Of a stretch of DNA of 10,549 nucleotides, positions 366-10,549 are shown one piece after another; position 1 is the stretch's first letter; every line of letters begins with the position of its first letter. The translations under genes and the position numbers were made by a program. The DNA is from Thermoproteota archaeon (lineage in GTDB: Archaea; Korarchaeota; Korarchaeia; B14-G2). The notes under the pieces were generated by a model. The model was not told the origin of the DNA, made no database searches, and saw only the letters and a list, made by a program, of their open reading frames with translations. The DNA is taken from NCBI GenBank assembly GCA_003661385.1, contig QMWA01000046.1, positions 1 to 10,549 of the forward strand, written 5' to 3'.

Positions 366-440
366 TTGGCTAGAGGGAAGCCTCCATCACAGTATATCAG
401 TGAGCTTTCTCAGGTGGAGCCTGAACCAGTGAAGCTTTGA
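366..440 (+). CDS. Tiny ORF overlapping the nuclease-like gene, or its displaced N-terminus
   Basis: A TTG start at 366 (or GTG at 363) preceded by AAGGTGG gives about 24 residues ending PEPVKL, with TGA at 438-440 sharing its A with the ATG of the next ORF (TGATG), a classic coupled junction. The ribosome-binding-like GGTG sits about five bases before the TTG. Two readings are possible. It may be a short leader peptide coupled to the next gene. Or it may be the true N-terminus of that gene: one extra T in the TTT at 436-438 would give VKLLMESYL with no stop. The peptide matches no family I know. The proline- and glutamate-containing text looks like protein rather than chance, but it is very short. 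Confidence 0.35.
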   Translation: MARGKPPSQYISELSQVEPEPVKL

Positions 441-871
441 TGGAGAGCTACCTGAGGTGGAAGAGGAGCCTTATAGAGGACTTCATGGAGTCCATCAACC
501 TGATTCACAGAATGAGGGATAGGATACAGAGGGCCTTGGGGGGCTTGCCCCAGATGGTAGGGCAGTTTAGAGCTTATAGCCTAGAGGAGTACATAAGGGA
601 CCTGATTAAAGCTAGGGTTAAGCCTAAGCTGGGTGTCTACTGGAATGAGGATGTTGTAGTCTGGAGGAGAGGCGTGGAGGAGTGTAAGATGAAGTTTGAT
701 GTTGTAGTTGGGAGGGTGAGAGGTGGGGAGCTCGTTCCCTCGCTCATAGTTGAGGCTAAGGTGGACTTAGATGCACCTAGACTTAAGGCTCTGATGCTGA
801 GTAGCCTGCCCGTGGAGAGGGTGTATGAAACTAGGGGTGCTGCTCGTTTACGTGTGGTGGAATGCCAATAG
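440..871 (+). CDS. PD-(D/E)xK nuclease-like protein, frame-truncated
   Basis: The reading frame from ATG at 440 (a TTG lies just before it at 437) gives 143 residues. The N-terminal half is helical and charged. The second half carries a PD-(D/E)xK-type core: Asp87 in KFDVVVG and Glu105-Ala-Lys107 in SLIVEAKVD, two beta strands about 18 residues apart, with Glu50 as a possible extra metal ligand. This is the arrangement of archaeal restriction-nuclease-fold proteins of unknown target. After about residue 131 the sequence loses protein character (RGAARLRVVECQ), whereas the +1 frame there becomes strongly protein-like, so this ORF is probably missing its native C-terminus. It lies divergent from the binding-protein gene and upstream of the acyl-CoA synthetase. 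The family assignment rests on motifs alone; nuclease activity is inferred. Confidence 0.6.
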   Translation: MESYLRWKRSLIEDFMESINLIHRMRDRIQRALGGLPQMVGQFRAYSLEEYIRDLIKARVKPKLGVYWNEDVVVWRRGVEECKMKFDVVVGRVRGGELVPSLIVEAKVDLDAPRLKALMLSSLPVERVYETRGAARLRVVECQ

Positions 872-986
872 AGTGTGGAGGAGAATAGCTTTGGAGGCTT
901 TAGACGGGGTCTATGGGTTCAACTTGAGTGAGAAGCATGTTGATGCCTTCATAAGGGATGTGAGAAGCCAGCTGAAGCCTCTATAG
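825..986 (+). pseudogene. Displaced C-terminus of the nuclease-like gene (+1 frame)
   Basis: In the +1 frame from ATG 825, 53 residues are encoded, including VLLVYVWWNANRVWRR and ending SQLKPL before TAG at 984-986. A beta strand followed by amphipathic helices is what a PD-(D/E)xK fold needs after its EAK strand. Removing one G from the GGGG at 834-837 joins the frames as VYETRVLLVYVWW. An independent start at 825 has no good ribosome binding site, so a frameshifted single gene is the simpler reading. Whether the base is a real mutation or a sequence error cannot be decided here. Confidence 0.6.
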
Positions 987-1053: not shown

Positions 1054-1085
1054 GGCTGTAATTGAACAGCTATATAGCAGATGTT

Positions 1086-1092
1086 GGAGGGG
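1086..1092 (+). promoter_or_regulatory. Ribosome binding site that fixes the synthetase start
   Basis: GGAGGGG lies six bases before ATG 1099. The longer frame beginning at ATG 1081 would place this site inside the coding region, so 1099 is the better start. Confidence 0.65.
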
Positions 1093-1098
1093 ATAGGT

Positions 1099-2742
1099 AT
1101 GCCAGCATACAGGTATGGGCTTCTGATAAAGCACATACTAGAGCACGTGTTGGTTAGAGCTCCTGACAAGGAGATAGTTTACAGGGATAAGGTGAGGTAC
1201 ACTTACAAGGGGTTCTATGAGAGAGTCTGTAAGTTGGCTTCCGTCCTTGAGGAGATTGGAGTCAAGAAGGGGAGTAAGATAGGGATCTTAGACTGGGATA
1301 CACACAACTACCTTGAGGCATACTATGCTATACCGATGATGGGCGCCATAATGCACACGATTAACCTCAGGCTTCCTCCTGAGCTGATACTCTATACCAT
1401 AAGGCATGCTGGCGACGACTTCCTCATGGTACGAGACGAGTTCTTACCGCTTATTGAGAGAGTCAAGGATAAGCTCGTTGGAGTAAAGGGGTTCATAGTC
1501 GCTAGCGAGAGCAAACAGGTGCCAGAAACACCGCTTGAGCCAGTCTACAACCTAGAGGAGATGATGGACAAGGCTTCACCGTCATATGAGTTCCCAGACC
1601 TCCCAGAGGACACCGATGCAACCATATTCTACACTACGGGGACGACTGGGATGCCTAAGGGCGTCATATTCACTCACAGGCAGATAGTCTTGCACACGTT
1701 TGCGATAGCACTCAGCCTATCAGGCTTCTACCCATCCCCGGTCACGATTACATCTAGAGATGTGCTCATGCCCTTGGTCCCATTCTTCCATGTCCACTCA
1801 TGGGGGCTTCCGTATGCTGCTACCCTGGGAGGCTGCAAGATGGTCCTCCTTGGGAGATATGACCCTGGGCTAGCACTTGAGATGATAGCTAAGGAGGGTG
1901 TGACGTTCAGCCACATGGTTCCCTCAATCCTCCACATGATAGTCAACCACCCGAGGGTCCATGAGTACAGGGATGCCCTATCGAGGTGGAAGGTAGTCAT
2001 TGGCGGTGCAGCTTTACCTAGGGGGCTTGCCGAGCAGGCTATGAGGCTTGGGATCAAGGTTATGGCCGGCTATGGGCTGTCTGAGACCTGCCCAGTGCTG
2101 ACGCTCTCGGTCCTGAAGGACTACATGGCTGAGTGGCCTGATGAGAAGAAGCTTGATGTGCTTATAAAGACCGGGATCCCAGCTCCGCTGGTCAAGCTGA
2201 GGGTTGTAGACAACCAGATGAGGGATGTCCCAAGGGATGGGAAGCACATGGGTGAGATCGTGGTCAGGGCACCATGGTGTACTAGAGAGTACTACAATGA
2301 CCCTGAGAGGACAGAAGAACTCTGGGCTGGAGGCTGGATGCATACTGGAGACGTGGCAGTGTGGGATGAGGAAGGCTACATCCAGATAACTGGGAGAGCT
2401 AAGTTCGTGATAAAGAGTGGTGGAGAGTGGATTCCCCCACTCATCCTAGAGAACCTGCTGAGCCTGCATCCAGCTGTCTCAGAGGTAGCTGTCGTAGGTG
2501 TGCCAAGCGACAAGTGGGGTGAGAGGCCTATAGCGATAGTAGCCACTAAGCCAGAGTATAGGGGGAAGGTGACAGAGGAGGAGCTGAGGAAGCACCTCGA
2601 GAAGGCGGTTGAGGAAGGCAAGATACTCAAGTGGTGGATTCCAGAGAAGTTCATATTCGTAGAGCAGATACCGAAGACAACAGTAGGGAAGATAGACAGG
2701 CTGAAGCTGATGGAAGAGTACAAGAAGATAAAGCTACCCTAA
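1099..2742 (+). CDS. Acyl-CoA synthetase, AlkK-type AMP-forming fatty/carboxylic acid-CoA ligase
   Basis: The 547-residue protein is a full-length member of the AMP-binding (ANL) superfamily. It would activate a carboxylic acid with ATP to an acyl-adenylate and then transfer it to CoA in the cytoplasm. Visible motifs in order are the phosphate loop TTGTTGMPKG at 179-188, FHVHSWGLPYAATLGG, which is characteristic of the medium-chain AlkK branch, YGLSE at 325-329, HTGD with ribose-binding Asp418, GRAKFVIKSGGEW from 432 at the domain hinge, and PKTTVGKIDR with catalytic Lys531 near the C-terminus. All key residues are present. The start at 1099 is favoured over 1081 by the GGAGGGG site and by the N-terminus MPAYRYGLLIKHIL, usual for the family. 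Chain length and substrate are not determinable. Together with the dehydrogenase and CoA-transferase at 4314-6728 it suggests acyl-CoA catabolism. Confidence 0.93.
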   Translation: MPAYRYGLLIKHILEHVLVRAPDKEIVYRDKVRYTYKGFYERVCKLASVLEEIGVKKGSKIGILDWDTHNYLEAYYAIPMMGAIMHTINLRLPPELILYTIRHAGDDFLMVRDEFLPLIERVKDKLVGVKGFIVASESKQVPETPLEPVYNLEEMMDKASPSYEFPDLPEDTDATIFYTTGTTGMPKGVIFTHRQIVLHTFAIALSLSGFYPSPVTITSRDVLMPLVPFFHVHSWGLPYAATLGGCKMVLLGRYDPGLALEMIAKEGVTFSHMVPSILHMIVNHPRVHEYRDALSRWKVVIGGAALPRGLAEQAMRLGIKVMAGYGLSETCPVLTLSVLKDYMAEWPDEKKLDVLIKTGIPAPLVKLRVVDNQMRDVPRDGKHMGEIVVRAPWCTREYYNDPERTEELWAGGWMHTGDVAVWDEEGYIQITGRAKFVIKSGGEWIPPLILENLLSLHPAVSEVAVVGVPSDKWGERPIAIVATKPEYRGKVTEEELRKHLEKAVEEGKILKWWIPEKFIFVEQIPKTTVGKIDRLKLMEEYKKIKLP

Positions 2743-2831
2743 CCCCCATTATTTATAGGTTAAGCATACTTTACTCCACACATTCACATCCTCATCCATT
2801 AGCTGCTACAGGAGCTCAGCATTGAGACATC

Positions 2832-2892
2832 AGCTGGCAGAATGTAAGGTTCAGGGGATAGCATTAGCAGCTGCTACAGAATGTGAGCTTCA
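2832..2892. repeat. Imperfect direct repeat pair
   Basis: The copy at 2832-2853 (AGCTGGCAGAATGTAAGG and on to TTCA) and the copy at 2869-2892 (AGCTGCTACAGAATGTGAGC and on to TTCA) match at most positions once a two-base gap is allowed. AGCTGCTACAG also occurs at 2801-2811, making a third partial copy. Function is unknown. Confidence 0.5.
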
Positions 2893-2964
2893 CCTGCTCT
2901 CATAGGAGAGCTCTGACAGCTCTGACATAGACCTTAAGCCCAGCCACCCTTTATCACTTTAGTA

Positions 2965-2996
2965 CCTAAAGGAATAGGGATATAAAATCCTTTAGG
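2965..2996. repeat. Inverted repeat with TATA-like loop
   Basis: CCTAAAGGA (2965-2973) and TCCTTTAGG (2988-2996) are perfect 9-bp arms around a 14-base spacer that contains GATATAAAA. It could be an RNA hairpin or a DNA-binding site over a promoter-like element; no gene follows closely on the plus strand. Confidence 0.6.
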
Positions 2997-3002
2997 CATA
3001 AA

Positions 3003-3023
3003 GCTCTAGCAGCATCCTAGAGC
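3003..3023. repeat. Short perfect hairpin
   Basis: GCTCTAG (3003-3009) and CTAGAGC (3017-3023) form a 7-bp stem with a 7-base loop, six bases after the previous inverted repeat. The tandem arrangement of two hairpins suggests structured RNA or paired protein sites, without further support. Confidence 0.55.
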
Positions 3024-3137
3024 AGACATAGGATCAGGGATTCCATAGCGGTAGCTTTGAATGCTCAGAGTGAACTAGCTCTTCATAGAGGAGGATGCAG
3101 AGGCTGTGAGAGCTAGCTAAAGAAGGCGATGATTGAG

Positions 3138-3151
3138 AGGTAAGCTTACCT
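3138..3151. repeat. 14-bp perfect palindrome
   Basis: AGGTAAGCTTACCT is self-complementary with no loop and lies 10 bases beyond the TAG at 3162-3164 that ends the reconstructed peptidase. The lack of a loop favours a dimeric protein site over an RNA hairpin. Confidence 0.55.
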
Positions 3152-3161
3152 TAGCCTCCAT

Positions 3162-3389
3162 CTATGGGGTGTAGATGATCAGCTTCATGCCTCCATTTAC
3201 CTTGCACTCTACTTTAGCCTTTAGGCTCCTGGCTTTAGAGAGGGTGTAGGCTAGCCAGTAGAAGTCTTCAGCTGAGATGGCTAGGTGTATGGTGTAAAGC
3301 ATGTAGGCTAGGATGTGGAGTGGGCCGCTGTAGAATGGGGGGGTCTAAGGCTGTGGTTGAGGTGGATGCGAGCAGTAAGGCAGCAGATA
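3162..3389 (-). pseudogene. Displaced middle and C-terminus of the HExxH membrane peptidase
   Basis: Beyond the TGA at 3390-3392 protein-like sequence continues. An alternate frame reads QLISAALLLASTSTTALD from 3395 down to about 3343, a membrane-like helix following SLAP. The original frame then resumes as FYSGPLHILAYMLYTIHLAI and continues with SAEDFYWLAYTLSKARSLKA to TAG at 3162-3164. The two switches fall at G5 (3396-3400) and G7 (3337-3343); adding one base at the first and removing one at the second restores a single frame of about 172 residues. The late His and Asp (IHLAISAED) fit the C-terminal conserved region I recall for DUF3267-type zincins. The frame is conserved overall, since 3680 to 3162 is exactly 173 codons including the stop. 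Confidence 0.6.
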
Positions 3390-3680
3390 TCAGCTGGGGG
3401 CTAGGGACACGGCAGCACACTTGGCTACAGATGTGCTCCTGTAGCCTGCTAGGAAGGCTGTCAGAGTAAGCTTCAGCCTCGTAACCTCCACCTTTAGGAG
3501 CTTCATGGCAGCTAGGTGAGCTAGCTCATGTAGGCCCCAGAGCCCTAGGGCTACTGGAATGAAGGTTAGCAGGTTTAATGTGAAGCTATAGCATAGCTTG
3601 GGCAGCATGAGGAAGCCCTGAAGCAGGGCTGCTAGCAGCAGAGCTGCTGCAAAAGCGAATATCAGGGTGATGTCGGTCAA
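3390..3680 (-). CDS. HExxH membrane zinc-peptidase-like protein (DUF3267-like), truncated by frameshift
   Basis: The N-terminal ORF encodes 96 residues. Residues 5-25 and about 33-49 are hydrophobic helices, the second running into GLHELAHLAAMKLL, where His51, Glu52 and His55 form a zinc-binding HExxH motif at the membrane, as in DUF3267 and related M50-type zincins. The family continues well past this point, so the TGA after SLAPS truncates the protein and removes the region expected to supply the third zinc ligand and the last helices. The start is TTG at 3678-3680, the only start codon after the upstream in-frame stop; no ribosome binding site is visible. It is divergent from the winged-helix regulator at 3765 across an 84-bp shared promoter region, which hints at co-regulation. 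Substrate is unknown. Confidence 0.6.
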   Translation of the reverse strand: MTDITLIFAFAAALLLAALLQGFLMLPKLCYSFTLNLLTFIPVALGLWGLHELAHLAAMKLLKVEVTRLKLTLTAFLAGYRSTSVAKCAAVSLAPS

Positions 3681-3723: not shown

Positions 3724-3739
3724 AGCCTTTTAAAAGGCT
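3724..3739. promoter_or_regulatory. 16-bp perfect palindrome over the TATA box: likely operator/promoter
   Basis: AGCCTTTTAAAAGGCT is perfectly self-complementary and its centre TTTTAAAA is a TATA box. The centre is about 33 bases before the regulator's TTG start and about 51 before the divergent peptidase start. A dimeric winged-helix protein binding here would block TBP, so autorepression by the neighbouring regulator is a natural inference. Confidence 0.6.
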
Positions 3740-3764: not shown

Positions 3765-4247
3765 TTGGCTCTGAACCTGGCTTACAAGCTCAGTAGGAGA
3801 GGGCTTCTAGTGCTGGGGTGGCTTCTTAAGCATGGTGCATGCGAGCTCAGTGAGGTAGCTAAGGGGCTTGGGCTCGATGTCAGTGAGGTCAGGGAGGCTC
3901 TCAGAGAGCTCACTCAAGAGGGTGTTGTAGATGAGAGCTACGGAGTATACTATGCTCTTCCAGTTCCAGGAAACCTGCTCCTTAAGCTCTCACTGGGCTT
4001 TGAGGTTAGCGAGGAGGAGTATAGGGAGTGCATAGAGTACCTGCTGGATAAGGCTTTCCTCGAGAAGACTGGGTTGAGCAGAGCTGAATACGAGAGAAGG
4101 TACCCTGAAAGCTACAGGAGGAAGGTGGTGGAGATCCTAGCTGAAGTAGAGGACAAGTATAGGCGTGAGCTCACAGAAATAAGAAGAAGGCTAGCAGAGC
4201 ACACATACAATAGGAGGAAGCCTGTGGGAAAGCAGCTGGAAAGCTGA
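3765..4247 (+). CDS. Winged helix-turn-helix transcriptional regulator with C-terminal coiled coil
   Basis: The 160-residue protein begins with a winged-helix DNA-binding domain at about residues 12-66: helix RGLLVLGWLLKHG, then ELSEVAKGLG, the recognition helix DVSEVREALRELTQEG, and a short wing ending DESYGVYYAL. This is the MarR/ArsR/TrmB-like fold common in archaeal regulators. Residues about 119-146 are a highly charged helix with heptad-like spacing, probably a dimerising coiled coil. No metal site or ligand-binding domain is recognisable between them. The start is a TTG supported by GAGGTGG. The promoter holds a perfect palindrome over the TATA box, which suggests autoregulation and control of the divergent peptidase gene. 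It is convergent with the CoA-transferase gene, 66 bases away. Confidence 0.8.
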   Translation: MALNLAYKLSRRGLLVLGWLLKHGACELSEVAKGLGLDVSEVREALRELTQEGVVDESYGVYYALPVPGNLLLKLSLGFEVSEEEYRECIEYLLDKAFLEKTGLSRAEYERRYPESYRRKVVEILAEVEDKYRRELTEIRRRLAEHTYNRRKPVGKQLES

Positions 4248-4313: not shown

Positions 4314-5507
4314 CTAGATTACTCCCTCCTCTCTTAGCTTTGCTATCTCCTCCTGGCTGTAGCCCAGCAGTTCCTTGAGGACTTCCTCTGTGTGCTGGCC
4401 TAGCGTTGGTGGTGGTAGCTTTATCTCACAGGGTGTCTGTGAGAACTTCATTGGTGTGCCTATCTGCTTTATCTTGCCTGCCTTGGGGTGATCCATTTCT
4501 ATGAGCATCTCGCGGTGTAGCACCTGTGGGTCGCTGAATATCTCGTCCATGGTGTAGACTGGGCCAGCTGGAACCCTGTTCTCCTCTAGTATCCTCAGCC
4601 ACTCGTCTCTTGGCTTCTCTAGGAAGAGCTTCTCCAGCATTGGTATTAGCTGGCTTCTGTTCTTGACCCTATCTGGGTTTGTCTTGAAGCGTGGGTCGTC
4701 TGCTAGGTGCTCTAAGCCTACTGCCTTGCAGAAGCTCTGCCATATCCTGTCATTCGCCACTGCTAGGGTGAAGTACTTTCCGTCCCCTGCCTTGAAGCAC
4801 TGGTATGGGACTATGTTGGGGTGTGCTGACCCCATTCTAGGTGGGACCCTCCCTGTTGCGAAGTAGTTTGCTGCCATGTAGGTCATGAAGCTTACTGTGC
4901 TGTCTAGTAGGGCGATGTCTATGTACTGGCCTCTCCCAGTCTGCTCTCTGACCCTGAGAGCTGAGAGTATGGCTACTGCAGCGTACATCCCTGCTATCAG
5001 GTCTGTTATAGCTACTCCTATCCTGACTGGAGGCCTATCTGGCTCCCCTGTTATCCCCATGAAGCCACCCATGCCCTGTAGTATGATATCGTATGCTACC
5101 CGGTTTCTGTATGGGCCTGTCTGCCCGAAGCCTGTTATGGAGCAGTAGACTATCCTGGGGTTTATCTTGCTTATCGTATTGTAGTCTACTCCAAGCCTCT
5201 CTGCTACCCCGGGTGCGAAGTTCTCTATTAGGACGTCAGACTTCTCAGCTAGCTTGTAAACTATCTCCCGGCCCTTCTCTGTCTTGAGGTTCACTGTTAT
5301 GCTCTTCTTGTTCCTGTTTACTGAGAGGAAGTATGCTGCCTCCCCGTTTAGGAATGGTGGCCCCCAGCTTCGCGTGTCGTCTCCTCGGCCTGGTATCTCC
5401 ACTTTGATGACTTCAGCCCCGAGGTCTCCCAGGATCATCGTGCAGAATGGGCCTGTGAGTATCCTTGATAGGTCTAGGACTCTGATCCCCTTTAGGGGAG
5501 GGGACAA
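4314..5507 (-). CDS. Class III CoA-transferase (CaiB/BaiF family)
   Basis: The 397-residue protein is full length for the family. It moves CoA from an acyl-CoA donor to a free carboxylate through an aspartyl-CoA thioester. The N-terminus LKGIRVLDLSRILTGPFCTM and GDLGAEVIKVE form the CoA-binding Rossmann-like start. SVNRNKKSITVNLKTEKGR and DVLIENFAPG follow, and the catalytic aspartate is Asp169 in AITDLIAGMYAA. SITGFGQTGPYRNRVAYD is also typical. It starts at TTG 5505-5507; GGGGG at 5513-5517 lies five bases upstream and no in-frame ATG precedes the conserved N-terminus. It follows the acyl-CoA dehydrogenase stop by nine bases, so the two are one operon. Donor and acceptor are not predictable: formate/oxalate, carnitine, succinate and aromatic acid relatives all share these motifs. 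Confidence 0.92.
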   Translation of the reverse strand: MSPPLKGIRVLDLSRILTGPFCTMILGDLGAEVIKVEIPGRGDDTRSWGPPFLNGEAAYFLSVNRNKKSITVNLKTEKGREIVYKLAEKSDVLIENFAPGVAERLGVDYNTISKINPRIVYCSITGFGQTGPYRNRVAYDIILQGMGGFMGITGEPDRPPVRIGVAITDLIAGMYAAVAILSALRVREQTGRGQYIDIALLDSTVSFMTYMAANYFATGRVPPRMGSAHPNIVPYQCFKAGDGKYFTLAVANDRIWQSFCKAVGLEHLADDPRFKTNPDRVKNRSQLIPMLEKLFLEKPRDEWLRILEENRVPAGPVYTMDEIFSDPQVLHREMLIEMDHPKAGKIKQIGTPMKFSQTPCEIKLPPPTLGQHTEEVLKELLGYSQEEIAKLREEGVI

Positions 5508-5516
5508 AAGAACCCC

Positions 5517-6728
5517 CTACTTGTATGGCATGTACTCTCTGCCTAGGAGCTCTCTCCCTATGATTATCCTCATTATGTTCTGAGCTCCCTCTGCCCCGAT
5601 GCAGTAGGACATCACTCCTCTGAGGCCCATCTCCAGTGGGCACTCCTTCGTGTACCCGTAGGCTCCATGCCAGATCATCACATCCTTGATGAGGTCGAAT
5701 GCCCAGAGTGGAGCTACTAGCTTAGCCATGGCAACGTACTTGTTCACATCTGAGACCTTCATCTTGCCCTTGTAGAACTGGTCTACTGCCCAGGCTGCCC
5801 TGTACACGAGGAGCTTAGCTGCCTCAAGCTTGGTGGCTTGGTCAGCTAGGTTGAACTGTATGCCCTCGTACTTCGCTATGGGAACCCCGAAGGCTGTCCT
5901 CTGCTTTATGTACTCCATTCCAATCTCGAGAGCCTTCTCAGCTGCGCCAACGCAGGCTGCTGCAACGAACACCCTGGCTACGTTGAACCCCTCCATGGCA
6001 TAGTAGAAGCCTCTGTTCAGCTCCCCAACGATCCATTTCTCATCGACCTCCACATTGTCCATCTTGAAGGCGCCAGTTGAGATCCCCATCCTCCCCATGT
6101 CCTCGAACAGCGATGTTTCTATTCCCTTAGTCCCCTTTATCGGCAGTGCCACAAAGGTCATTCCCCTGTGCCCTAGCTCTGGCGCTGTCTTCACCAGGGT
6201 CATGTGGACTCCACCATACTTCAGCGCTTCCCTCACACCGCTTATATACGCCTTCTCTCCGTTTAGGATCCACTTTCCATCGACTTTCTTCATCGTGGTC
6301 TTCATCCCAGCTAGGTCGGAGCCTCCACCTGGCTCTGTGGTAGCTATCCCAACCCAAGCCTCTCCCTTAGTGAGCTTAGGCAGTATCTCCTCCTTCCACT
6401 CTGGCTTCCCATACTTGTCAAATATGTAGCTCCAGCCAGCCTGCACAAGGTAGTACACGGCAGTCGCACAGCTTATATCAGCTCTAGCAATCTCCTCAGC
6501 AGCTATAGCAGCTGTTACTGCATCAGCCTCGCTTCCACCATACTCTGAGGAGACCATGATCCCCATCAGCCCAAGCTTCGCCATGCCCTTAATGACAACA
6601 TCTGGTATCTCAGCCTTCTCATCTATCTCCCTAGCCCTAGGCTCAATCTCCTTCTCACAGAACTCGCGGACAGTCTTCCTAAACAGCTCCTGCTCCTCAG
6701 TAAAGCTGAAATCTGGCACAGCTAACAC
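5517..6728 (-). CDS. Acyl-CoA dehydrogenase
   Basis: The 403-residue flavoprotein would introduce an alpha-beta double bond into an acyl-CoA, passing electrons to an electron-transfer flavoprotein. The N-terminal helical domain (FSFTEEQELFRKTVREFCEK) is followed by the FAD/substrate motif ATTEPGGGSDLAG at about 129-141, WILNGEKAYISG at 153-164, the C-terminal helical domain with RTAFGVPIAKYEGIQF, and GYTKECPLE. The catalytic base position holds Glu380 in GAEGAQN, where most relatives have YEGT, so the glutamate is kept but the flanking Tyr and Thr are not. The chosen start is GTG 6726-6728: it lies 26-27 bases after the TATA box at 6751-6762, fitting a leaderless mRNA. A GTG at 6719 is the alternative. 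The 26 codons further upstream are not family-like. First gene of the operon with the CoA-transferase. Confidence 0.92.
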   Translation of the reverse strand: MLAVPDFSFTEEQELFRKTVREFCEKEIEPRAREIDEKAEIPDVVIKGMAKLGLMGIMVSSEYGGSEADAVTAAIAAEEIARADISCATAVYYLVQAGWSYIFDKYGKPEWKEEILPKLTKGEAWVGIATTEPGGGSDLAGMKTTMKKVDGKWILNGEKAYISGVREALKYGGVHMTLVKTAPELGHRGMTFVALPIKGTKGIETSLFEDMGRMGISTGAFKMDNVEVDEKWIVGELNRGFYYAMEGFNVARVFVAAACVGAAEKALEIGMEYIKQRTAFGVPIAKYEGIQFNLADQATKLEAAKLLVYRAAWAVDQFYKGKMKVSDVNKYVAMAKLVAPLWAFDLIKDVMIWHGAYGYTKECPLEMGLRGVMSYCIGAEGAQNIMRIIIGRELLGREYMPYK

Positions 6729-6750
6729 CCACAACCCCACTCCAAAGCCG

Positions 6751-6857: not shown

Positions 6858-6982
6858 CTACTCCCAGTATGTGGGAGCTACACTCCTTCTTATCATGTCA
6901 GGTGGGTCGTCTCTGAACCTCCACAGCCCCTTAGCTGGGTCGACTATAGACAGCTTAAGAGCTGACGCTAGTACATCACTTA
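6858..6982 (-). pseudogene. Displaced C-terminus of the retropepsin-like gene
   Basis: Immediately past the TGA at 6983-6985, the neighbouring frame reads ISDVLASALKLSIVDPAKGL, then WRFRDDPPDMIRRSVAPTYW and a final E before TAG at 6858-6860. From memory, archaeal members of this aspartic-protease-like family end with a GLWRFRDDPP-type segment, so this is the missing C-terminus. One extra T in the TT at 6985-6986 would give GESEALISDVL without interruption. Confidence 0.7.
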
Positions 6983-7285
6983 TCAAGCCTCGCTTTCGCC
7001 TGCAGACACGACTGGAACAGCCTCAATGAAAGCCACCCTCCTGTCCTCAGCCTCCACCTCAACATGAATCCTCTCAGAGCACTTGACAAGAATAGCTACT
7101 CCACCAACAACATCATACTCCTGGATAATAGCTCCTGTCCCCGGAGGGTATAAGCCAAGCTCCTCAGCTAGCTTAGCTGGTAACAGTATTTCAGGATCCT
7201 CAGCCTCAAAGCCAGTGTTAACAAGAGCTGACGACTCTATCTCCCTCTTACCTCTCCTTATCCTTAGCCTCACCCTCACTCCCAT
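6983..7285 (-). CDS. Retropepsin-like (clan AA) protein, NTG in place of DTG, frameshifted
   Basis: The intact part encodes 100 residues. MGVRVRLRIRRG is the first beta hairpin, then SSALVNTGFEAEDPEILLPA matches the retropepsin-like active-site loop and following helix, with AEELGLYPPG after it. The expected catalytic Asp-Thr-Gly reads Asn23-Thr24-Gly25, so proteolysis is unlikely unless this subgroup uses Asn. The protein then stops early after SAGESEA; the rest is found in another frame at 6858-6982, giving about 142 residues when joined. The start is ATG 7283-7285 after GGTAGAGGC. It overlaps by 38 bases with a possible 43-codon gene upstream. A lost catalytic residue plus a frameshift together suggest a decaying or non-enzymatic gene. 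Confidence 0.6.
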   Translation of the reverse strand: MGVRVRLRIRRGKREIESSALVNTGFEAEDPEILLPAKLAEELGLYPPGTGAIIQEYDVVGGVAILVKCSERIHVEVEAEDRRVAFIEAVPVVSAGESEA

Positions 7286-7379
7286 ATGCCTCTACCTTAG
7301 ACTTCACTAAGTAGCCGAGAACCCTGCCTGGACGCAGCCTACCGATCCTCCTTCTCACACGCTGCCTCACCCTGAACAC
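7248..7379 (-). CDS. Possible small basic protein, leaderless GTG start
   Basis: GTG at 7377-7379 opens a 43-residue frame, MFRVRQRVRRRIGRLRPGRV followed by LGYLVKSKVEAYGSEGEAKD, that ends with TAA at 7248-7250. The GTG lies about 26 bases after the centre of a strong TATA box (7396-7409), exactly right for a leaderless transcript. The N-terminal half is very arginine-rich and could bind nucleic acid. It overlaps the retropepsin-like ORF by 38 bases in another frame, which weakens the case; the same TATA could serve that ORF with a leader of about 95 bases. No family recognised. Confidence 0.4.
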   Translation of the reverse strand: MFRVRQRVRRRIGRLRPGRVLGYLVKSKVEAYGSEGEAKDKER

Positions 7380-7395
7380 CAGCTTAAGATACCCA

Positions 7396-7409
7396 CGTGA
7401 TATATATTT
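7396..7409 (-). promoter_or_regulatory. Strong TATA box upstream of the small basic ORF and retropepsin-like gene
   Basis: On the minus strand AAATATATATCACG is the clearest TATA element in the window. It precedes GTG 7379 by leaderless spacing. Confidence 0.6.
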
Positions 7410-7413
7410 GCTT

Positions 7414-7444
7414 CTAGAGAGGCCTTAAGCAATGCCTCCTCTAG
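7414..7444. repeat. Ten-base-pair hairpin with one bulge
   Basis: CTAGAGAGGC (7414-7423) pairs with GCCTCCTCTAG (7434-7444) with a single bulged C at 7439 and a 10-base loop. It sits just upstream of the TATA box at 7396-7409 on the minus strand, between that promoter and the acylphosphatase-like gene. It could be a regulator site or RNA structure; there is no T-run. Confidence 0.45.
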
Positions 7445-7615
7445 CTAGAAGCCAGCTATATTGACTAGATGGCTTCCACACTCTCAGGCTTATGGGAGCA
7501 GCTAGTAGCTGTAAAGGGCCTTACACTCAGCTTAAGCTAAGTAAGAGCTTAGTAGACATCTAGCCAGCACTCAACTCCAGCAGCTGCTAGAGAACTCATA
7601 GCAGAAGCAGCTACA

Positions 7616-7670
7616 TTACTTGTGCTCTCCATGTGAGTCATCGCCCTTATTCTCCTCTTCTGAAAGCTCC
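7616..7670 (-). pseudogene. Displaced acidic C-terminal tail of the acylphosphatase-like protein
   Basis: Removing one G from the run of five at 7678-7682 turns KQGGG-stop into KQGEAKELSEEENKGDD followed by SHGEHK and TAA at 7616-7618. The alternate frame is rich in Glu, Lys and Asp and continues the charged coiled-coil character of the protein, whereas GGG-stop is abrupt. The tail is short, so this is less certain than the other frame breaks. Confidence 0.45.
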
Positions 7671-8138
7671 TTAGCCTCCCCCTTGCTTCCCGGAGATCAC
7701 CTTGAGCATCTCAAGCTCCCTGTCCTGCTTCCCCGAGATCTCCCTGAGCATGCTTAGCATCCCGTTTAGGACTTTGAGTGTTTTCTCCTGTGTTTCTATC
7801 ATTCTAGCTATGTAGGATACGCCTTTTGCTAGCTGTTCTAGCTGGAGGAGCATTACGTAGTCTCTTGCTTCCTGTATCTCGTCTGATGGGTAGCTTTCTA
7901 CGTCCATCCTGTCTACTTCGGCTGACTCTGGTTTCATGGCTTTTACAGAGTCGATTAGCTTTCTGAGCTTCTCTTCTGGGGCTTCTGCAAGGACTAATAT
8001 GGCTTGCTTGCCCTCTATGTGTATGTTGTGGGCTTCAAACTTCTGGATGCCTAGCCTGAAGGCTATGCTTGAGAGGAGGAGCCTGTATCCCACCTCATGC
8101 ACTCTGCTACCTACTATTACTATCTTGACTGGCATCAT
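7671..8138 (-). CDS. Acylphosphatase-like domain protein with C-terminal coiled coil
   Basis: The 155-residue protein has an acylphosphatase-like ferredoxin fold at about residues 3-85. VKIVIVGSRVHEVGYRLLLS aligns with the usual GRVQGVGFR loop, keeping the catalytic Arg19. Asn38 in FEAHNIHI is at the position of the catalytic Asn, and EGKQAILVLAEAPEEKLRKL supplies the third strand and second helix. The loop residues HE replace the usual QG, so hydrolysis of acyl phosphates is possible but unproven. Residues about 92-150 are a helical, heptad-like stretch (LEQLAKGVSYIARMIETQ and following, then two copies of ISGKQ), an unusual extension that suggests oligomerisation. The start is one of two tandem ATGs (8136-8138 or 8133-8135). 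The last residues are probably altered by a frame change at a G run. The gene stands alone between the kinase and the retropepsin-like gene. Confidence 0.7.
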   Translation of the reverse strand: MMPVKIVIVGSRVHEVGYRLLLSSIAFRLGIQKFEAHNIHIEGKQAILVLAEAPEEKLRKLIDSVKAMKPESAEVDRMDVESYPSDEIQEARDYVMLLQLEQLAKGVSYIARMIETQEKTLKVLNGMLSMLREISGKQDRELEMLKVISGKQGGG

Positions 8139-8262
8139 GGATGGTGTGCTAGGTTGGCTTAAGAGGGTGCTGTCAGCTAGTGTTGGGTTTATATCTCTAG
8201 GCTATGCTCTTAAGGGCTCTGTCCTCTTGGGCTTGCTCGAGTTAGCTAGATTCTTAGGGTGA
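8137..8262 (+). CDS. Doubtful small hydrophobic protein, divergent from the acylphosphatase-like gene
   Basis: ATG 8137-8139 opens a 41-residue frame, MDGVLGWLKRVLSASVGFIS followed by LGYALKGSVLLGLLELARFL and a G. It could be a single amphipathic or transmembrane helix pair. It fills the 107-bp gap between the acylphosphatase-like gene and the kinase 3' end, overlapping the start of one and the last bases of the other. There is no ribosome binding site or plus-strand TATA in the usual place, so it may be chance in a promoter region that must contain the minus-strand gene's own control sequences. Confidence 0.2.
   Translation: MDGVLGWLKRVLSASVGFISLGYALKGSVLLGLLELARFLG
8188..8200 (-). promoter_or_regulatory. 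Candidate TATA box for the acylphosphatase-like gene
   Basis: On the minus strand GAGATATAAACCC lies about 50-62 bases before the tandem ATGs. A weaker element, CTCTTAAGCC at about 8156-8165, has leaderless spacing. Confidence 0.4.
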
Positions 8263-9721
8263 TTGCTGTCTTAAGGAGCTTCCTCCACCTCTCGTATTTC
8301 TCTGTTGTGTCTCTTTTCCTGTGGAACACCTCTGCTGTTGGGATCTGGGGTCCTCTCCTCCACTTGCCTAGGGCTCTTCCTGCTATGAGGTATGCTCCGT
8401 ATGATGAGCCTGAGAGTAGTGCTGCTCTCTCGACTGGTAGGCCTGTTGTGTCAGCTATTGCCTGGAGTAGGAAGCTGTTTGAGGAGGCTTCTCCATCGCA
8501 CCTTATCTTCTTGGGCTTCCATGACTCTGTTCTCATGAGCTCGATTACTTCTGTTATCCTGAATGCTATTGCCTCTAGGAGAGCTTTTACTATGTCTTCT
8601 CTCGTTGTCGTGTTGGATATCCCGTATAGTAGGCCTGGAGCTTGGGTGTAGTATGGTGTGCCTAGTGCTGTGAACGCTGGTATCAGCAGCAGGGTCTCGT
8701 TTCTCGACTTGTATGCCATGTCTGATGTCTCCTTTACGTCGCTGTAGAGGCCTAAGTCCCTCATCAGCTCTATGGCAGCTCCACTGTAGGTTACCATGCC
8801 CTCTAGCATGTACCTCACTTCTCCTCTTAGCTTCCATGCTATGAGGGGGAGTAGGCCTGTTGTCGAGGCAGTAGGCTCCTCTCCTACGTTTAGGTCGATG
8901 AAGCTTCCTGTCCCATTAGTCACCTTTAGGCTTCCCTTCTCCCAGCAGCCTAGTGCGTATAGTGAGGCAGATTGATCTGCTATCACCCCTACCACTGGGG
9001 TTCCCTTGTACTCGCCGAATACCTCGTCTGATGGCTTTACAGCTGGTAGCATGTCCTCGCTGACCTCTATGAGGTCTAGGATCGTTCTACTCCAGCACAT
9101 GTAGAATATGTCGTATATTCCTGTCGCGGCTGCATTCGAGTAGTCTGTTGCATGCTCGCCTGTGAGCTTATACACTAGCCAGCTGTCTATTGTGCCGGCC
9201 TTCAGCCTGTATCTGCTGGCCTTCTCGCCAAGCTGGTCTAGCATCCACTTGAGCTTCACGCTCATGTGGCTTGACCTCAATGCGAGCTTTGACACTGTGA
9301 TAAGCCACTTGACTCTCCTGCTGGCTTTGAGCCCTGGTAGAGCGGCTGCAGCTAGGGATGTGAGCTTGCCTATGGCTCTTCCAGCCCTCAGCACTAGGCT
9401 TCTGTTCAGCTCTGCTGCAGTGGGCTCTGCGCGTGTATCCTGCCAGCCTACAGCTGGCATGATAGGCTTGCCTGTCTTCTCGTCCCAGAGGACAGCTGTG
9501 GCTCTCTGGTTTGTCATGGCTATGGCCTCGATCTCGTGCTTCTCTGCTGCATAGCTGACTAGCTTGATGCACTTCCTGGCTAGGTCCTCTGCGTCTATCT
9601 CAACCCACCCTGGCTGAGGCGTGTGCTTTCTTATGGGCTCCCTCACTAGCTTTACTAGCTTGCCCTCATCGTAGACAGCTAGCTTCACCATGGTGGTGCC
9701 TGCGTCTACGACAGCTATCAT
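8246..9721 (-). CDS. FGGY-family carbohydrate kinase, glycerol-kinase-like
   Basis: The 491-residue protein has the two-domain FGGY (ASKHA) layout and would phosphorylate a polyol or sugar with ATP in the cytoplasm. It opens with the phosphate loop VVDAGTTMVKLAVY. MTNQRATAVLWDEKTGKP and VGWQDTR resemble glycerol kinase, GTIDSWLVYKLTGEHATDY is the conserved mid-domain helix, and the catalytic base is Asp249 in GVIADQSASLYALG. TNGTGSFIDLNVGE is the second phosphate motif and LEAIAFRITEVIELMR with CDGEASSNSFLLQAIAD closes the fold. Two oddities: the glycerol-binding Arg-Glu of GlpK (NQRET) is Arg73-Ala74 here, and the stretch between WQD and KLKWMLD is about 25 residues longer than in E. coli GlpK. 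The substrate may therefore differ from glycerol. It overlaps the stop of the upstream iron-sulfur gene as ATGA. Confidence 0.88.
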   Translation of the reverse strand: MIAVVDAGTTMVKLAVYDEGKLVKLVREPIRKHTPQPGWVEIDAEDLARKCIKLVSYAAEKHEIEAIAMTNQRATAVLWDEKTGKPIMPAVGWQDTRAEPTAAELNRSLVLRAGRAIGKLTSLAAAALPGLKASRRVKWLITVSKLALRSSHMSVKLKWMLDQLGEKASRYRLKAGTIDSWLVYKLTGEHATDYSNAAATGIYDIFYMCWSRTILDLIEVSEDMLPAVKPSDEVFGEYKGTPVVGVIADQSASLYALGCWEKGSLKVTNGTGSFIDLNVGEEPTASTTGLLPLIAWKLRGEVRYMLEGMVTYSGAAIELMRDLGLYSDVKETSDMAYKSRNETLLLIPAFTALGTPYYTQAPGLLYGISNTTTREDIVKALLEAIAFRITEVIELMRTESWKPKKIRCDGEASSNSFLLQAIADTTGLPVERAALLSGSSYGAYLIAGRALGKWRRGPQIPTAEVFHRKRDTTEKYERWRKLLKTAITLRI

Positions 9722-10549
9722 AGCTCCATCACCACCAGCTCTATGATGTCTTTTGCCTTAAGTGCCATCTTGCAAGCTGGGCATGTGGTCACGACCTCAT
9801 AGGTGAAGTGGCTTCTCCTGGCTTCAGCTATCCTCTCAGCGTAGCCTCTATCAACTAGCCTATAGATGCCGCCGTAGCCGCAGCAGTACGTCTCATGCCT
9901 GCTGTATGGTGGCTCATGTAGCTTGAAGCCCATGCTCTCTAGCAGCCTGCGTGGCTCCTCGATTACATTCAGCCTCCTCGCTAGTATGCAGGGGTCATGG
10001 TAGGATATGTCTCCTCCTATCCTGATGGGCTTCAGCAGCTTCATGACGTGGTTTGCCTCTATGCCAAGCTTCCTCATGATGTAGATGCAGTGTGGGCAGC
10101 TGCTCACGATGCTCTTGTACCCGGAGGCTAGCTTCCTCAGCTCTTTAGCATGCTCCCTGAACTTCTCCCTGAACCCAAGCTCGTAGTATGGCATCCCACA
10201 GCACACCAGCTGGCTGCTCACAGCAAAGTCCACACCAAGCTTCTCCAGGGCTTCTACTGTGGGCTTGAAGAGCCCTGCCTCGAACGTCCTGCAGCCTGGG
10301 AAGTAAAGGATCTTCCCGTCTCGCTCCTCCCGCTCAGCCTCCCTCCTGGCTTCAGCCATGAGCTCCTCTGCCTTCCTAGCTGCCTCCTCAGCTAGCTTGC
10401 TCCTACGCCCCACTCTAGCTTCAGCCAGCTTCTCGCCTACGCTTATCTCCATTGGGCAGCTTGCCTTGCATGCGTCACATGGAAGGCAGTGGTATATCGC
10501 GTCGAACACCTCTTCCTCCATGAAGTATGCGAGCCTCATCTTCACAGAA
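9718..10549 (-). CDS. GlpC/HdrD-like iron-sulfur oxidoreductase subunit with two CCG domains (5' end probably off window)
   Basis: Counting from the GTG at 10543-10545, Cys20, Cys23, Cys26 and Cys30 (CLPCDACKASCP) bind a [4Fe-4S] cluster. A charged helix (about 40-75) follows, then two cysteine-rich CCG domains: FPGC with Cys85, VCCGMP (115-116) and CPHC (150-153), then DPC with Cys186, YCCGYG (221-222) and CPAC (255-258). This is the layout of GlpC, LutA, GlcF and HdrD/B subunits, which carry electrons from a flavin dehydrogenase to quinone or heterodisulfide-type acceptors. The frame stays open to the window edge, and family members usually have an earlier cysteine cluster, so the gene likely begins to the right. 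Coupling to a glycerol-kinase-like gene suggests a role with a glycerol-3-phosphate dehydrogenase, though another hydroxyacid oxidase is possible. Confidence 0.85.
   Translation of the reverse strand, partial: SVKMRLAYFMEEEVFDAIYHCLPCDACKASCPMEISVGEKLAEARVGRRSKLAEEAARKAEELMAEARREAEREERDGKILYFPGCRTFEAGLFKPTVEALEKLGVDFAVSSQLVCCGMPYYELGFREKFREHAKELRKLASGYKSIVSSCPHCIYIMRKLGIEANHVMKLLKPIRIGGDISYHDPCILARRLNVIEEPRRLLESMGFKLHEPPYSRHETYCCGYGGIYRLVDRGYAERIAEARRSHFTYEVVTTCPACKMALKAKDIIELVVMEL
9728..9733 (-). promoter_or_regulatory. Ribosome binding site inside the upstream gene's end
   Basis: GGTGAT on the minus strand lies six bases before the kinase ATG, within the last codons of the iron-sulfur protein gene. 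With the ATGA overlap it indicates coupled translation and fixes the kinase start. Confidence 0.65.

Follow-up and report, generated by a model that had tools for sequence, protein, structure and literature searches.

A probable recent pseudogene of a DUF3267-type membrane zinc peptidase, broken at two short G runs in a Korarchaeia contig

The window analysed here is an entire contig (C46; 10,549 bases) of a korarchaeal bin of 206 contigs and 1.74 Mb, 91% complete, and it carries on its minus strand a gene of a DUF3267/M50-like integral-membrane zinc metallopeptidase that is probably a recently inactivated one (pseudogene). Judged from its sequence, the interval 3680-3162 is one ancestral coding sequence, with frame 0 coding on both flanks. 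Since the N- and C-terminal parts are in frame 0 and the middle is in the -1 frame, the frame changes imply that, in net terms, one base was lost near a G5 run and one gained near a G7 run (Table 1).

The composition of the contig is typical of its bin. That it might be a contaminant was considered and rejected, because in tetranucleotide distance it ranks toward the low end of the contigs sampled. Across the bin contigs sampled (L011-L030 and L079-L098) the G+C content ranged from 0.465 to 0.582, and given this range strains or related species may be mixed in the bin. Within the window, the gene-free stretches 2743-3161 and 7286-7670 are rich in AGCT (29-31 per kb, versus 13-14 in the long genes), and AATT is nearly absent, with one copy in all. 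Moreover, the palindromic CTTTTAAAAG (3725-3735) lies between the broken peptidase gene and the divergent winged-helix regulator gene, and could possibly be a candidate TATA region common to both.

Table 1. Features of the 10,549-base window and of the broken peptidase gene
Feature	Position	Strand	Remark
Small gene, frame-broken near 842	437-986	+	Coding-frame change; ORFs 437-871 and 825-986
Acyl-CoA ligase	1081-2742	+	
Broken gene, DUF3267/M50-like membrane zinc peptidase	3162-3680	-	173 codons read as one frame
Open N half, 96 aa	3680-3393	-	Contains HELAH
G5 run (C5 on coding strand)	3396-3400	-	First frame change, net -1 base
TGA stop, frame 0	3390-3392	-	Just 3' of G5
Middle segment (QLISAALLLASTSTTALD)	3344-3395	-	DUF3267 homology only in -1 frame
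TAG stop, frame 0	3345-3347	-	Just 5' of G7
G7 run (C7 on coding strand)	3337-3343	-	Second frame change, net +1 base
C-terminal part	3165-3336	-	Frame 0 again; carries conserved Asp of ISAEDFYW
Winged-helix regulator	3765-4247	+	Divergent from broken peptidase gene
CoA-transferase	4314-5507	-	
Acyl-CoA dehydrogenase	5517-6740	-	
Clan AA aspartic-protease-like gene	6861-7285	-	One base missing near 6985-6998
Acylphosphatase-like protein	7671-8138	-	
Glycerol-kinase-like FGGY kinase	8246-9721	-	
Iron-sulfur/CCG protein	9718-10545	-	

The peptidase gene is 519 bases long, from a TTG start at 3680 to a terminal TAG at 3164-3162, and frame 0 is interrupted by exactly two internal stops, the TGA and the TAG. 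On the coding strand the G5 run lies 5' of the TGA and the G7 run 3' of the TAG, and 52 bases separate the two runs. A conserved SLAP motif immediately precedes the first joint, and the second joint lies in a loop ahead of the conserved Asp. The initial annotation had described a length that is a multiple of three, a frame that resumes after the second run, two stops in between and breaks at both G runs, and all of these points were borne out, as were the positions of the runs. The second frame change is unlikely to coincide with the G7 run by chance, because G/C runs of at least seven are scarce: the sampled stretches of the genome contain 24 in total.

Codon usage identified the coding frame on both flanks. 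In the N-terminal part the log-odds reached 36.5 bits in frame 0 versus -9.0 and 3.2 in the other frames, and in the part after G7 they reached 20.6 bits versus 3.0 and -4.6, so that frame 0 was ahead of the next-best frame by about 33 and 18 bits, respectively. For the middle (16-17 codons) the values were 1.4 bits in the -1 frame versus -3.0 in frame 0, a weak signal from a short segment. The two indels aside, the gene's codon usage shows no damage.

The middle is assigned to the -1 frame because homology decides where codon usage favours that frame only slightly. With the middle read in the -1 frame, the protein matched DUF3267 (PF11667) at 30.1 bits, above the cut-off of 27.1, over profile positions 4-103 of 108, whereas the frame-0 middle gave 19.2 bits, below the cut-off, and a masked middle 18.3 bits. 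The earlier claim that the middle helix exists only in the alternate frame was confirmed. A profile built from three relatives of the class gave 14.6, 10.6 and 10.7, respectively; the value of 14.6 was reached by none of 300 off-frame segments from other genes and by 4 of 300 shuffles. In the alignment with these relatives H51, E52, H55, P95 and D139 are invariant. The read-through protein has HELAH at residues 51-55, 5' of the break, a membrane helix after SLAP, and Asp139 3' of the break, and it is a putative zinc peptidase of DUF3267. The first reading, a membrane zinc peptidase whose reconstruction of 172 residues should be compared with both families, was upheld for DUF3267, with Peptidase M50 (PF02163) giving a weak match below the threshold (16.3 bits versus a cut-off of 27.2).

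Class relatives scoring above the DUF3267 cut-off have a single open frame through the same region, with no stops inside. As in a frameshift pseudogene, homology runs across the in-frame stops and whole homologues exist elsewhere. A protein search for near relatives in 61 genomes returned only the gene itself, as did a search of a collection of genome contigs, so no near relative provides the ancestral run lengths. Among the genomes searched the bin's own family had no other member, and the searches brought up no homologue that shares both joints.

The same contig contains two more small genes whose frames are broken. The gene at 437-986 contains SLIVEAKVD and is nuclease-like by eye only, and it matched no Pfam family and lacked homologues in the class. 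The aspartic-protease-like gene has whole homologues in a related genome (G017; 53% identity), where several whole and split copies occur, and four whole paralogues in its own genome (C187, C69, C13 and C87); these genes form a multi-copy family with decaying members. Elsewhere in the same genome (L020, G000:C10, minus strand, approximately 8800-9670), a cysteine-synthase-like gene changes frame at HYQTTG/REIIEQAGG, beside GAGAGAGA, and is possibly another pseudogene or error.

The frames, the stops and the homology are direct observations, and the order and cause of the two indels are what we infer: the polymerase would have slipped in two short G runs, removing one base net at G5 and adding one net at G7. 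Translation from 3680 would end at the TGA and leave a stub of 96 residues, which would keep HELAH but have neither the helix nor the conserved Asp expected to complete the zinc site, and nothing would be expected to read the downstream part. Although the frame returns after G7, no protein is restored, because both frame-0 stops remain. For the same reason the suggested repair by a second mutation is not supported: the TGA and the TAG persist in the resumed frame and no protein is regained. A +1 after a -1 can be explained without selection for restoring the gene. Indeed, a second indel of +1 or -1 compensates the first about half the time, and the contig has two more frame-broken small genes; the pair of changes is not, as had been supposed, odd for pure decay. 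With the peptidase gene, the contig has three broken small genes, all probably dispensable, and its metabolic genes are whole.

The main rival, possible if doubtful, is a sequencing or assembly error, by which the organism would have an intact gene and both G-run lengths would be miscalls in a poorly covered contig. Both frame changes are located exactly at G runs, the gene has no other damage, and two further frame-broken genes within the same 10.5-kb contig are what bad coverage would give. Intact codon usage is predicted by such an error always, and by decay only if recent. Furthermore, published work expects many singleton genes with a broken frame and homologues on either side of it to be sequencing errors (PMC3711429). 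Splits, however, are not in excess genome-wide: homologues from two relatives allowed 151.7 kb of coding DNA in the sampled stretches of the bin to be examined, and a single split event turned up there, compared with two in 192 kb of a single-contig relative (G002) and three in 124 kb of another relative (G009). Frame switches called by the codon model over the genome sample were too mixed with ordinary gene joints to be counted. Nor are other runs disrupted, as 17 of the 19 coding G/C runs of at least seven, and 139 of the 154 of length six, sit inside one open frame in the sampled stretches. The two exceptions among the longer runs, two C7/C8 runs in L084, were rejected as frame changes, since they are located near gene starts. 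The assembly has no systematic problem with G runs; the suspicion of sequence error raised by the initial annotation retains some force for this gene, and a general homopolymer problem in the sampled assembly does not account for it. The break of the aspartic-protease-like gene, moreover, is outside any long run, and the breaks of the window are all in small accessory genes, whereas the larger metabolic genes, approximately 2500 codons in all, are whole; this tally was made post hoc and deserves little numerical weight. Decay of dispensable genes is favoured because the assembly is clean and the breaks are confined to small accessory genes.

Readings in which the gene still yields its protein fare far worse. 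That it is phase-variable or recoded, with whole protein made in some cells or transcripts through slippage of DNA or RNA at these runs, is highly improbable: G runs are present at both joints, the product is a predicted membrane protein and codon usage is intact, but both runs are short, and class relatives that pass the DUF3267 cut-off are single-frame. Slippage at G7, once proposed as a switch, is excluded as a mechanism acting alone, since translation meets the TGA ahead of G7, and no length of that run yields a whole protein; one molecule would have to undergo two opposite slips. Neither on/off switching by one tract alone, as in a phase-variable contingency gene, nor a frame change conserved among homologues, as in a programmed frameshift gene, was found. 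A living gene in which double slippage, in transcription or replication, supplies a minority of whole peptidase under two-tract control would be an unusual control of an archaeal membrane protease; nothing here favours it, and we rate it as more improbable still. The least credible alternative is that both frame-0 stops are read through and decoded as residues. Apart from these stops frame 0 is open for 173 codons, but its middle is not helix-like and adds almost nothing to the DUF3267 score over the masked version; read-through was rejected, as the homology of the middle lies in the -1 frame.

Recent decay, the reading that we prefer, is nothing new in kind, being an ordinary frameshift break in a known family. 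The case matters little beyond annotation: an accessory peptidase has decayed (or been miscalled) in an archaeal class that is rarely sampled. That small genes are broken and metabolic genes whole within a single contig gives a modest indication of gene turnover in the lineage. In the literature on Korarchaeota pseudogenes we found nothing specific.

In comparison with known systems, the read-through protein resembles DUF3267 members in scoring above the cut-off and in having HExxH and a downstream Asp as in the class relatives, and it differs in that the gene is not open here, the 96-residue stub being the only possible product. With Peptidase M50 it shares HELAH in a membrane helix, which fits the N-terminal motif region, whereas the sub-threshold match covers only 37 residues. 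Lastly, the gene is like the singleton frameshifted genes described in the literature (PMC3711429) in its indels at short runs, its homologues on both sides and a frame change that is not conserved; it differs from them in having two opposite indels so close together, which is uncommon and not special.
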